Source: Fodinibius salsisoli
GTDB lineage: Bacteria > Bacteroidota > Rhodothermia > Balneolales > Balneolaceae
Direction: 5' to 3'
Length of the DNA stretch: 64,000 nt
NCBI RefSeq assembly: GCF_026229185.1
Contig: NZ_JAGGJA010000003.1
Coordinates: forward strand, 124,001-188,000
Part shown: piece after piece, positions 34,416-37,876 of the stretch
How the letters are laid out: each line of letters starts with the position of its first letter
How positions within the stretch are numbered: the stretch's first letter is position 1
Made by a program: the position numbers and the translations under genes
The notes under the pieces: model-generated
Database searches by the model: none
Told to the model about the DNA's origin: nothing
The model's input: only the letters and a program-made list of their open reading frames with translations

Positions 34416-34468
34416 AAGTTGATAACTGGGATAATTTTAAGATGTTTTGATTATCATAGTTAAACATC

Positions 34469-34488
34469 AGAACGAAATTATTCGTTCT
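34469..34488. promoter_or_regulatory. Palindromic operator candidate 1 of the suf operon
   Basis: AGAACGAA (34469-34476), a 4-bp ATTA spacer, and TTCGTTCT (34481-34488): a perfect 8+8 inverted repeat 54 bp upstream of the sufB ATG. Read on the minus strand it overlaps a plausible promoter (TTTCGT, 16 bp, GATAAT). Its symmetry is that of a dimeric repressor site; the regulator is unknown (no Rrf2/IscR-like gene is in the window). Confidence 0.6.
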
Positions 34489-34498
34489 ATTTGCCTTC

Positions 34499-34513
34499 AG
34501 CATAATTTATGCT
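34499..34513. promoter_or_regulatory. Palindromic operator candidate 2 of the suf operon
   Basis: AGCATAA-T-TTATGCT, a perfect 7+7 inverted repeat with a single central base. It lies 10 bp from the first palindrome on the side away from sufB, and differs from it in sequence, so two different regulators, or one regulator and one RNA structure, may be involved. Confidence 0.5.
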
Positions 34514-34888
34514 AACAATTCAATGCTGTTTCAGCTGTTGTTTATTTCTTTATGCTTAAACAGGGAATATAAGGATAATTCGGTCTAACCTAAATTTTAA
34601 TAAGGAGTTATTTAACCCTTGTGAAGTCCCTGTGACTGTCGCTAGTAAAATGTCCAAACATTAGGAGATGAACCAATCGAAAGAGATTATGAATCAGATA
34701 AAGTTTGGTTATCTATTTCATGCATTACTTCGCTTACTATGCACCCTTTTGACATAATGACCTCGTCAAATCAGCCCGGTTAAGTAGCTCGTGGACAGAT
34801 TATACGGATGAATTGAATTATAGTTTGCAAAATTGTTCACAGTACCTCAATAGTTGTCAGTTGTCAGAAGTAAATGCCTACTGATTGT

Positions 34889-36631
34889 TCAATTAGTAAA
34901 TGAATAATATTGATCTCCAAAAATTATCGGCGTTTGTGCCCGGTCATGCAGCCTTCGTGAAGTGTAGGATATATCTCGTTCAAGAAAATCATAAATCTTA
35001 TTTAAGTTGGTAAATCGTTGTTGCAAAGCCTTGGCAAACAGGTAAGGAAAAATATGGTGTTTCTTGTCCTCTCCTCGAGATGATTGATAAAGTCTTGATG
35101 GTTCCCCTACTAGGCTTCCCATAATCAAGGTGGAGTTAGAAGTTTCTGTCAAGGTCTCAGCATAGGGTCGCATCAACGTAGCCTGGTTATCTCCAGACAC
35201 TGACTGTGACTGACTGTGACTAAAATCAATATCTGCAACTACAATTGTCTTTTGGGATGGGATTGCACTTATTTGGCTGAAAAGGGTCCCCAGGGGGATA
35301 TCCGTTGCACCAGAAGTATCATCAAGGGACACCGATTGCAGAAAGAGGTCCCCTCCCTTTTCAATGCGTCCAAATCCACCGGCAAAAATGAAAAATTCGG
35401 TACTGTCATTGGCCGTTGCCTTAATTTCTTGTATCGCAGAATAAACTTCCCGGGGGGCCTGAACATCTGTTAGTTGATGGATATTTTTCTGGGCATATCC
35501 CAATCCCTTCTCCAGGTATGCGACTATTAACTCCCCATCCCGATGGGTATACCTCCGTTCGGGCAGTGACTCAGAATAGTTTTCGTTAGTAATAACAAGC
35601 GCCTTTACATTGGGGGTTGAGGGCCGCAACTTTGGGATATTACTCTCAACATCAATCTTGCCAAAAGGTATTCGTGGAACACTAACGATCTGTTCATTTG
35701 AATTCATTTCGGAAGAACGCCATATGAGCGCGGCTTCATCCTTTGAAATATAATTTTCAAAATTACCGTACCTCACCTTATACCAATCGTCATTAAACGA
35801 AGATATAACTTTTATTTGGCTACCACGGGCCAGATCAGCCAATACATTCTCGGGATTAATGTCAGGTGTGCTACGCAGCTCTGCATATTCGGCTTTGATC
35901 TGGGCATAAGGCTCTAAAACATCCGAAACGGGATAGGTGCGCTGATAGGTAGAATCGTTAAAGTGAACCGACAGGTTAAAACTACCTAACCCTTCCCCCG
36001 TTAACTGCAGGTCGTTAAAGCTTGCTGCCAGTGGCAGCTGAATACCCCCCCTGGAAATGTTGCTTAGGCTATCCTGAAGCAAGGTTTGCCCACGATAGGT
36101 AACCATAAAATCTACTGGCAATACCAAATTGGTCTGAACATCAACCGTATCTGTCACCATCAGTTCGCCGGTATTATCAAGGTAGCGTTCTTCACCAACG
36201 GATTGGGGCTCCCCGGTTGGTTTTAAATTTAGAAAGCCGGATGCACCTAGCAGAGCGCCCACAATATTAAGGGTTAGAGATTGAGTGGAACCTAAATCAT
36301 ATCGGCTGGAGTTAGCCGCATAAAAAGCAGCGGCAGCCCCGGCAAGACCCAATGTTACGAACCCAGGACGTAACTTATACTCCTGAATACTGCGCTGAAC
36401 AAGCATTTTTTGTTGGTAACTGCGAGTTATACGGGCAAACACATTGAGCTCTATGGTAGGTTCTTCAGGCGTCAACGTATCGGCAATGGTCAGAAAATGC
36501 TTCTCTTCCAATACCTTATAGTCTGATCGATCAACAGCCTTCTGATCTTTTACGACCCATCTACCATTAGTGCAGGATACAGAAGATATCAGTACTATTA
36601 GCAAAAATGATATGTTGGCAACCCTGCTCAC
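34889..36631 (-). CDS. Lipoprotein with SH3 and catalytically dead caspase-like domain
   Basis: A 580-aa predicted lipoprotein (LISSVSC, Cys20). Residues about 90-240 are a poorly defined beta-rich region; 245-305 resemble an SH3_3 domain (ELRSTPDINPENVLADLARG, then DDWYKVRYGN); about 340-530 match a caspase/peptidase C14 fold: VKALVITNENY, THRDGELIVAYL, a DSTEFFIFAGGFG strand and KTIVVADIDFSHS. In active enzymes these last two read YSGHG and DACFSG; here the His position is Gly419 and the Cys position is Asp469. It therefore looks like a pseudo-enzyme. GTG start; ends the operon after the Omp85-like gene, 9 bp downstream of it. Confidence 0.8.
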   Translation of the reverse strand: MSRVANISFLLIVLISSVSCTNGRWVVKDQKAVDRSDYKVLEEKHFLTIADTLTPEEPTIELNVFARITRSYQQKMLVQRSIQEYKLRPGFVTLGLAGAAAAFYAANSSRYDLGSTQSLTLNIVGALLGASGFLNLKPTGEPQSVGEERYLDNTGELMVTDTVDVQTNLVLPVDFMVTYRGQTLLQDSLSNISRGGIQLPLAASFNDLQLTGEGLGSFNLSVHFNDSTYQRTYPVSDVLEPYAQIKAEYAELRSTPDINPENVLADLARGSQIKVISSFNDDWYKVRYGNFENYISKDEAALIWRSSEMNSNEQIVSVPRIPFGKIDVESNIPKLRPSTPNVKALVITNENYSESLPERRYTHRDGELIVAYLEKGLGYAQKNIHQLTDVQAPREVYSAIQEIKATANDSTEFFIFAGGFGRIEKGGDLFLQSVSLDDTSGATDIPLGTLFSQISAIPSQKTIVVADIDFSHSQSQSVSGDNQATLMRPYAETLTETSNSTLIMGSLVGEPSRLYQSSRGEDKKHHIFPYLFAKALQQRFTNLNKIYDFLERDISYTSRRLHDRAQTPIIFGDQYYSFTN

Positions 36632-36640
36632 AGTGTAAAT

Positions 36641-37876
36641 TTATAAAGAAATTATGGCTCCTATTCCGATAACATGTCGAAATTTAAAATGATCCTCTTC
36701 TCCGGGGTGTGATAACCAAAGTGGTAGATCATACCGCAGCATCAGTCCGCGTGATTTACCAAGATAATCCGGAATATTAACGGACAGCATAAATCCAGGA
36801 CCGGCATCAGTGAGCAAGCGCGGCTCTTCAATATCCGTAACTCCTAAGGAGGTGCCCCCATCAAAGAAAATATAGGATCTTAAGCTCGTAAATTTTCCCA
36901 CAATAGGCACGTTTTTGAATGCTCGATCCAATGGATTTGGATAATCAAGTTCCACATTCACCGCTGAAAGTGAAGTATATAGAGGTGCCAAACCGCTATT
37001 TAATACTTCAGTATCCTGATGCAGGTACCCCCTTAACCCTGGACCTCCCGTTATCTGTATACTCCCGGACTCCATAAGCGTTGGCGAAATAGTACCACGA
37101 GCTCTTGTTAAGCCATGGTCCATCCAGCCCCGAGCTGAATTAAAACTATGAGAAAAAAGATATTCCGGAGCCGTTTTATCTGTAGCAAAACCGGTGTACA
37201 ATCGACCAGAGAGCTTAAAATAATCAGATAAGGGAATATTTTGATTGAATGCGATTTCTGCACGAAAGAAACCGGGATATGAGCCCGCGATATTGGCATC
37301 CGCAGATACCAAGATTGCGTACCGTCCTGCCCCGTTGGTGTTCGTACTGAGTAATTCAGCCGATACAGGATACAACCAATCATCCTGCCACAGCTGATTA
37401 TACAGCAGGTAATCCTCGTCAAAACGATGCTCGGCCCGCGCCCCTACTGATAATTCCGTAAAGTTTAGCTCATCAAAACCAGGCTGCCAGCGCTTGCTAA
37501 AGGTAAGGCCATGAAACTGAAAACCGGTGCGAAATGAACTTTCCAGACTTATGTTAGCTTCGCTGCCAAAATCTGACAACGAAGGTATCGGTTCCGTAAA
37601 CGAAAAATAATAAGAAACAGGATGTTCTGGAAATTTCGTCCCCAGCCAAACTCCCGTATTAAGACGGTGAGGACCATCCCCAAAAGAGTCCGGGGTACTG
37701 CCCTTGAGCCGAACACCGATACGAATGCCATCCACACTATTATACCAGAGATCCGGAGCCGGGGTGAGTTCATAGCTGTCACCAAACTGGGCTATACTCT
37801 TTGGGATATTCCCCGCAAAAAGTAAGATAGCCAGAATAAATCCAATTTTGATCTTCTTTAAAGCTCTAAAATCCAC
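36641..37876 (-). CDS. Omp85-like outer-membrane barrel protein
   Basis: A 411-aa secreted barrel protein (signal ending PKSIAQF). It has alternating strands with the BamA/TamA-type feature GGPGLRGYLHQ at about 270-280 (the loop-6 L-R-G-Y/F motif), FFDGGTSLGV, RGLMLRYDLPLW and the ending HVIGIGAIISL. POTRA domains are absent, so it is a barrel-only surface antigen type, not BamA itself. Start is a GTG that overlaps the Nudix gene end by 19 bp. Possibly a lipoprotein or protein export channel, or partner of the pseudo-caspase; not established. Confidence 0.72.
   Translation of the reverse strand: MDFRALKKIKIGFILAILLFAGNIPKSIAQFGDSYELTPAPDLWYNSVDGIRIGVRLKGSTPDSFGDGPHRLNTGVWLGTKFPEHPVSYYFSFTEPIPSLSDFGSEANISLESSFRTGFQFHGLTFSKRWQPGFDELNFTELSVGARAEHRFDEDYLLYNQLWQDDWLYPVSAELLSTNTNGAGRYAILVSADANIAGSYPGFFRAEIAFNQNIPLSDYFKLSGRLYTGFATDKTAPEYLFSHSFNSARGWMDHGLTRARGTISPTLMESGSIQITGGPGLRGYLHQDTEVLNSGLAPLYTSLSAVNVELDYPNPLDRAFKNVPIVGKFTSLRSYIFFDGGTSLGVTDIEEPRLLTDAGPGFMLSVNIPDYLGKSRGLMLRYDLPLWLSHPGEEDHFKFRHVIGIGAIISL

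Follow-up and report, generated by a model that had tools for sequence, protein, structure and literature searches.

Pseudo-orthocaspases, in which one or both catalytic residues of the p20 domain are replaced, are an already published kind of protein. The available sections of Klemencic et al. 2019 (PMC6426788) give 858 pseudo-variants among 9,994 bacterial orthocaspases, place 90% of the pseudo-variants in Alphaproteobacteria and Cyanobacteria with Tyr/Ser as the commonest pair, and count pseudo-variants in only 10 of 1078 Bacteroidetes sequences. Asplund-Samuelsson et al. 2012 (PMC3501461), likewise in its available sections, report an intact pair in 84% of putative bacterial metacaspases. 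According to the excerpts available, cells tolerated oxidative stress better once the pseudo-orthocaspase SyOC of a cyanobacterium had been deleted (PMC7889975), and conflict systems can contain caspase domains that are inactive (PMC7159879).

The window analysed here is a stretch of 64,000 nucleotides from the 4.85-Mb genome of Fodinibius salsisoli (contig NZ_JAGGJA010000003.1, positions 124,001 to 188,000 of the forward strand), and all coordinates without a locus label refer to it. An open reading frame with a GTG start (34889..36631, minus strand) encodes a 580-residue pseudo-orthocaspase and putative lipoprotein (P0001), whose closest named relatives are the proteins of Fodinibius roseus (56% identity) and F. 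sediminis (53% identity). As far as the available sections of PMC6426788 go, this pseudo-caspase shares with the pseudo-orthocaspases of Cyanobacteria and Alphaproteobacteria a replaced catalytic pair, retention across a clade and a suggested housekeeping role, and with the cyanobacterial proteins an N-terminal extension bearing export signals. While Tyr/Ser is the commonest pair there and the cyanobacterial N terminus is TAT-like, the window protein has Phe/Asp (its family mostly Tyr/Asp) and a lipobox, and it differs from the proteins described in those sections in carrying an SH3b-like domain and a family-specific N-terminal domain. What appears to be new is the occurrence of such a protein across Balneolales, with Asp as the replacement, a probable lipid anchor and this N-terminal domain. 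Among the matches listed, titles and abstract openings on Balneolales caspases, Bacteroidetes caspase-like lipoproteins, C14 proteins of the Fodinibius group and inactive caspases in antiphage defence did not describe the protein.

The earlier note on this DNA had recognised a C14-like core in the protein, and Pfam agreed: PF00656 (Peptidase_C14) scored 29.6 bits against a curated cut-off of 21.4 in the caspase-fold domain (about residues 336-580; 34892..35626, minus strand). The match covers residues 343-447, with its best stretch on profile positions 3-102 of 233 only; the domain was picked up by the genome-wide search as well, and PF00656 matched 17 of 36 family members scanned at E <= 0.01. 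An AlphaFold2 model built from six sequences had a mean pLDDT of 61 over the whole protein and of 82-91 in eight of the ten ten-residue blocks from residue 371 to 470. The best PDB match of the model in Foldseek was the MALT1 paracaspase domain (E 2.7e-9), and VIA aligned model residues 341-580 with plant metacaspase 4 at Z 19.1 (rmsd 3.2, 207 residues aligned). The comparison with metacaspases that the earlier note had proposed has therefore come out in favour of the fold, and the model predicts a genuine caspase domain (caspase-hemoglobinase fold). Orthocaspases are told apart from metacaspases by the lack of a p10 domain; alignment of the model to metacaspases and caspases extends to residue 580. 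With the EACC1-associated caspase profile NF047832 the score was 29.9 bits where the cut-off is 140, and the protein is not assigned to that group. A profile search of solved structures with the whole protein returned only weak rows (best E 0.29, 9ovi, for a stretch in the SH3 region), and a single-sequence search of the same structures returned no row at E <= 1.

Catalytic positions were read from an alignment of 84 members, one per genome, drawn from the 105 Balneolales genomes with a match (the remaining 21, which include fragments, were left out), together with 15 active-looking relatives. These relatives, Bacteroidota C14 proteins such as L093, L095 and L119, have the same core and the flanking motifs GN..Y and R.L..R.Q.P; those scanned carry other N-terminal parts, for example CARDB or YCF48-like repeats (L093, L119). 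All 15 keep GHG and DAC(F/H/Y)SG, with the GHG Gly at column 419, the catalytic His at 420 and the Cys at 469; the window protein does not keep these motifs. It has Phe420 (codon 35372..35374, minus strand) at the His position and Asp469 (codon 35225..35227, minus strand) at the Cys position, and so lacks the His-Cys pair of an active C14 peptidase. Gly419, which had been taken for the His position, is off by one: it is the first Gly of GHG, a residue shared by all 15 active relatives and by 83 of the 84 family members aligned. The alignment moves the His site by this one residue, still finds no His there, and leaves the original assignment of Asp469 to the Cys position standing. The claim of a dead caspase holds as judged from the alignment, in which both catalytic residues of the window protein appear replaced.

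Cysteine occurs in none of the 84 rows at the catalytic Cys column, so that the replacement, whose fixation had been left to a homolog alignment, is fixed. The column holds Asp in 60 rows, Glu in 11, Ser in 4, Gln in 3, Phe in 2 and Asn, His, Ile and Met in one each, an acidic residue standing in 71 of the 84. The His column holds Tyr in 47 rows, His in 15, Phe in 12, Ser in 5 and five other residues once each. With Phe/Asp the window protein falls outside the YS subtype of pseudo-orthocaspases, and Tyr/Ser was found in only four of the 84 rows. In 81 members, the window protein among them, there is no cysteine beyond Cys20. Seven residues (Cys20, Trp25, Arg80, Gln83, Glu329, Arg559 and Gln566) are invariant in all 84, and none of them belongs to the old catalytic pair. 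Since Arg559 and Gln566 are also frequent in the active relatives (8/15 and 12/15), these two may be features of the fold only.

Balneolales offers a case for tracing which catalytic residue went first, with the Cys gone at the root and the His kept in one family. That family (f5) has His/Asp in all 15 rows (L059-L061, L066-L077), family f3 has Gln, Lys, Ser or Ile with Asp (4/4 rows), the single row of f4 has Ser/Met, and Balneolaceae (f1) have Tyr/Asp in 34 of 64 rows and 13 other combinations. Because the Cys is absent from all 84 rows while f5 keeps the His together with Asp, the Cys was probably lost before the His. A tree of 92 domains rooted on eight active relatives placed f3 and f5 outside the f1 and f4 group (99% SH-aLRT), and the presence of His on it needs two changes; this was a quick tree without bootstraps, in which the deepest forks are either open or have weak support, and long branches lead to L078, L065 and L062. 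The simplest reading is a single change of Cys to Asp ahead of the radiation of the order, with the His lost later in separate events.

The earlier note had also described a lipid anchor and an SH3 domain. The first part stands at the level of the sequence: the signal peptide with its lipobox (36572..36631, minus strand) ends at Cys20 (codon 36572-36574), and this Cys is present in all 84 aligned members. Position -1 is Ser, Ala or Gly in 79 of 84 and position -3 is Leu in 33 of 84; the lipobox of the window protein, SVSC, is without the usual Leu at -3. A signal peptide followed by a lipobox ending in Cys is the sequence signature of a lipoprotein, and it points to export and lipidation of the protein at Cys20 and to a periplasmic location. 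In E. coli the residue after the lipobox Cys governs sorting between the membranes. Here that residue is Thr or Ser, never Asp, in all 84 rows, and the protein is most likely sorted to the outer membrane. The SH3 part proved weaker than stated. The SH3b-like domain (residues 251-298; 35738..35881, minus strand) scored 24.2 bits with PF08239 (SH3_3), below the curated cut-off of 27, and SH3_3 matched at E <= 0.01 in 8 of the 36 members scanned, including the window protein (best 6.7e-7).

Between the lipobox and the SH3b-like domain lies an N-terminal domain of 227 residues (residues 20-246; 35894..36574, minus strand), with an inserted helical hairpin, hydrophobic and glycine-rich, at about residues 89-134 (36230..36367, minus strand). 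Its AlphaFold2 model had a mean pLDDT of 63, with which the fold is unsure. Foldseek gave no significant match for the model (best E 0.038), and the best VIA match, the C-terminal domain of mirolase (Z 8.4, rmsd 2.3, 79 residues aligned), lies near the level that the tool calls common; for these reasons the label of Ig-like sandwich is tentative. Pore-protein rows in the same Foldseek list were disbelieved, and a match of the domain profile to a fatty-acid-binding protein among solved structures (E 0.26) was taken as chance. In a search of 296 phylum genomes with a six-sequence profile, the N-terminal domain alone was found in 38, always at the place of the pseudo-caspase gene; it appears restricted to this family where searched. 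SlyB has a hydrophobic hairpin between beta regions and no caspase domain. Both it and the pseudo-caspase are lipoproteins with a similar hairpin layout, while the caspase domain is found only in the latter. No glycine-zipper or SlyB-type Pfam family matched the window protein at E <= 1, the 36 members at E <= 0.01 or their N-terminal parts at E <= 1. SlyB was also not in the Foldseek and VIA lists for the N-terminal domain, an absence that excludes nothing. The available part of PMC13067283 presents SlyB as an outer-membrane guard lipoprotein.

The pseudo-caspase matched in 82 of 92 Balneolaceae genomes and in 64 of the 66 good ones; 80 of the 82 matches cover most of the query, and those in G033 and G047 are fragments. 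A search of 244 genomes of the class found it, besides these 82, in 4/4 genomes of f3, 1/1 of f4, 18/20 of f5 and 0/11 of f2. Weak matches in G172, G235 and G236 were to the caspase part only, with intact motifs. In the search of the 92 Balneolaceae genomes, G018, G022 and G026 had a second match to the caspase part only. A profile of 36 members run against 394 phylum genomes gave no further full-length member among the best three candidates per genome, and four f2 genomes had no match in this search or in the 296-genome search with the N-terminal domain. Matches in G040, G041, G065 and G107 span one stop near the match end in the profile search and no internal stop in the single-protein searches. 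Balneolales is not known for photosynthesis. That 64 of the 66 good genomes of Balneolaceae, its best sampled family, keep a pseudo-orthocaspase weakens a general tie to photosynthesis for proteins that PMC6426788 reports mainly from photosynthetic Cyanobacteria and Alphaproteobacteria. In one Balneolaceae genome (G074, locus L137) the gene is missing from an otherwise intact locus, between the barrel gene and eamA-pta, and at four f2 loci it is absent beside the barrel gene (a fifth, L134, ends too early to judge). The pseudo-caspase is thus near-universal in Balneolaceae yet dispensable in places.

Because the catalytic residues are gone and nearly the whole family has kept the dead version, the protein probably binds rather than cuts. 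We propose, giving the proposal an even chance, that the pseudo-caspase is a non-catalytic adaptor of the envelope with a ligand-binding role. Its lipid would hold it to a membrane, most likely the outer one, on the side of the periplasm. The glycine-rich hydrophobic hairpin may in addition contact the membrane or further copies of the protein, and the SH3b-like domain may touch peptidoglycan. The caspase-fold domain would have lost its Cys in the common ancestor of Balneolales and its His later in most lineages, and may have been retained as a binding module instead of a peptidase. The scaffold or sensor suggested in the earlier note would be compatible with such a role. If this is true, a caspase fold works in the bacterial envelope without catalysis. 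In a more ambitious form, which we put forward as doubtful, a single conversion before the radiation of Balneolales would have made the caspase fold, until then a peptidase, a permanent structural component of the outer-membrane machinery. The product would be an adaptor anchored by its lipid, with a hairpin in the membrane and an SH3b-like arm next to the dead caspase head, in which the Asp of the old Cys position and the aromatic residue of the old His position would shape a new pocket.

Across Balneolales the gene lies in a recurrent order, greA-(ugd-uxs)-nudix-barrel-(ackA)-pseudocaspase-(eamA)-pta-(manA)-sufBCDS, where the neighbours are what we take them to be from their sequences. At 83 loci the nearest recognised downstream gene is eamA in 59, pta in 13, sufB in 6, manA in 2 and none in 3, and all recognised adjoining genes share the strand of the pseudo-caspase. 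In the window a gap of 473 nt (34416-34888) separates the pseudo-caspase from sufB. The 59 relatives among the 83 have eamA as the next recognised gene on this side; in the window neither eamA nor ackA is at the locus. Tree distances of the pseudo-caspase at 29 loci track those of four neighbours (r 0.71-0.82; SufB 0.73, GreA 0.71). We read the pseudo-caspase as a vertically inherited chromosomal gene outside defence islands.

As a special case of the adaptor, the protein could be an accessory lipoprotein that places, stabilises or gates the product of the upstream gene (36641..37876, minus strand), a 411-residue protein that we read as a putative outer-membrane beta-barrel. It had no Pfam family match, and a profile match to a solved structure (E 0.58) was taken as chance. 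The two genes are 9 nt apart in the window, the barrel gene is the nearest recognised upstream gene at 38 of the 83 loci (ackA at 39, nudix at 2, none at 4), and the partial correlation of their tree distances, given three other neighbours, is 0.45 (29 loci). However, the Nudix gene reaches a nearly equal value (0.42). The barrel gene, present in 108 of 244 class genomes, occurs in 10 of 11 genomes of f2, the family without the pseudo-caspase, and is kept in G074 as well; conversely, g19 genomes have the pseudo-caspase in 7 of 9 and the barrel in 0 of 9. This separate occurrence argues against a strict pair, and we have lowered the barrel partner as the main explanation to the rank of an unlikely one. 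At the f2 loci L132, L135 and L136, greA is separated from nudix by a long gene that we presume to encode a carbamoyltransferase-like protein, and the barrel gene is followed by sugar-nucleotide genes.

Dead caspase folds kept for binding are familiar from c-FLIP-L, which acts with caspase-8, and from TbMC4 in a metacaspase cascade. A similar regulation of an active caspase by the pseudo-caspase is, in our judgement, improbable: those proteins work with active partners, while most carriers here show none. Further PF00656 genes were found in 9 of 92 Balneolaceae genomes, of which eight are carriers, and none was seen in 74 of the 82 carriers, a finding that speaks against the protein assisting an active caspase; the PF00656 profile is insensitive to divergent members, since it gave the pseudo-caspase a score in only 27 of these 82 genomes, and could therefore hide divergent C14 partners. 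An obligatory active partner with a standard C14 domain is unlikely, and G074 has three other C14 genes and lacks the pseudo-caspase. In favour of regulation, pseudo-caspases of this type are described in the available sections of PMC6426788, and the genome of F. salsisoli itself has two more C14 genes close together, at L131 (1799-5464 and 6312-8432, both minus strand; G000:C42). One of the two has WD40 repeats with AGHG and DTCQSG motifs; the other has a weak DUF4384 match and DACHSG, and a pattern search did not find its His motif.

The earlier note had pointed to bacterial death and defence systems, and the conflict systems with inactive caspase domains (PMC7159879) and the oxidative-stress phenotype of the SyOC deletion (PMC7889975), as far as the excerpts go, lend the idea some precedent. 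In Balneolales, however, the link finds no support. Throughout the order the gene keeps to a single conserved place, with greA, nudix, ackA, pta and suf genes around it, its tree distances follow SufB and GreA, PADLOC gave no match to it at E <= 1, the score with NF047832 is far below the cut-off, and most Balneolaceae carriers show no other C14 gene. We regard a component of a cell-death or anti-phage system as highly improbable.

A changed enzyme, in which His/Asp in f5 or Tyr/Asp in Balneolaceae performs another hydrolysis or binds a metal, would fit the His that f5 kept in spite of the Cys loss and the prevalence of acidic residues at the Cys position. On the other hand, the pair takes 14 combinations in the 64 Balneolaceae rows, and of the nine pairs with estimates for all four parts, six had their highest omega in p20, so that we give an altered activity very little chance. 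For 17 related pairs, omega was <= 0.28 wherever dS could be estimated (largest finite value 0.28, with many dS saturated), which points to purifying selection on every domain of the protein. Indeed, although the catalytic residues are gone and the p20 part tends to evolve fastest, a decaying relic of a caspase can practically be dismissed in view of these omega values, the reading frames that stay open at similar length throughout the order and the near-universal match in good Balneolaceae genomes.
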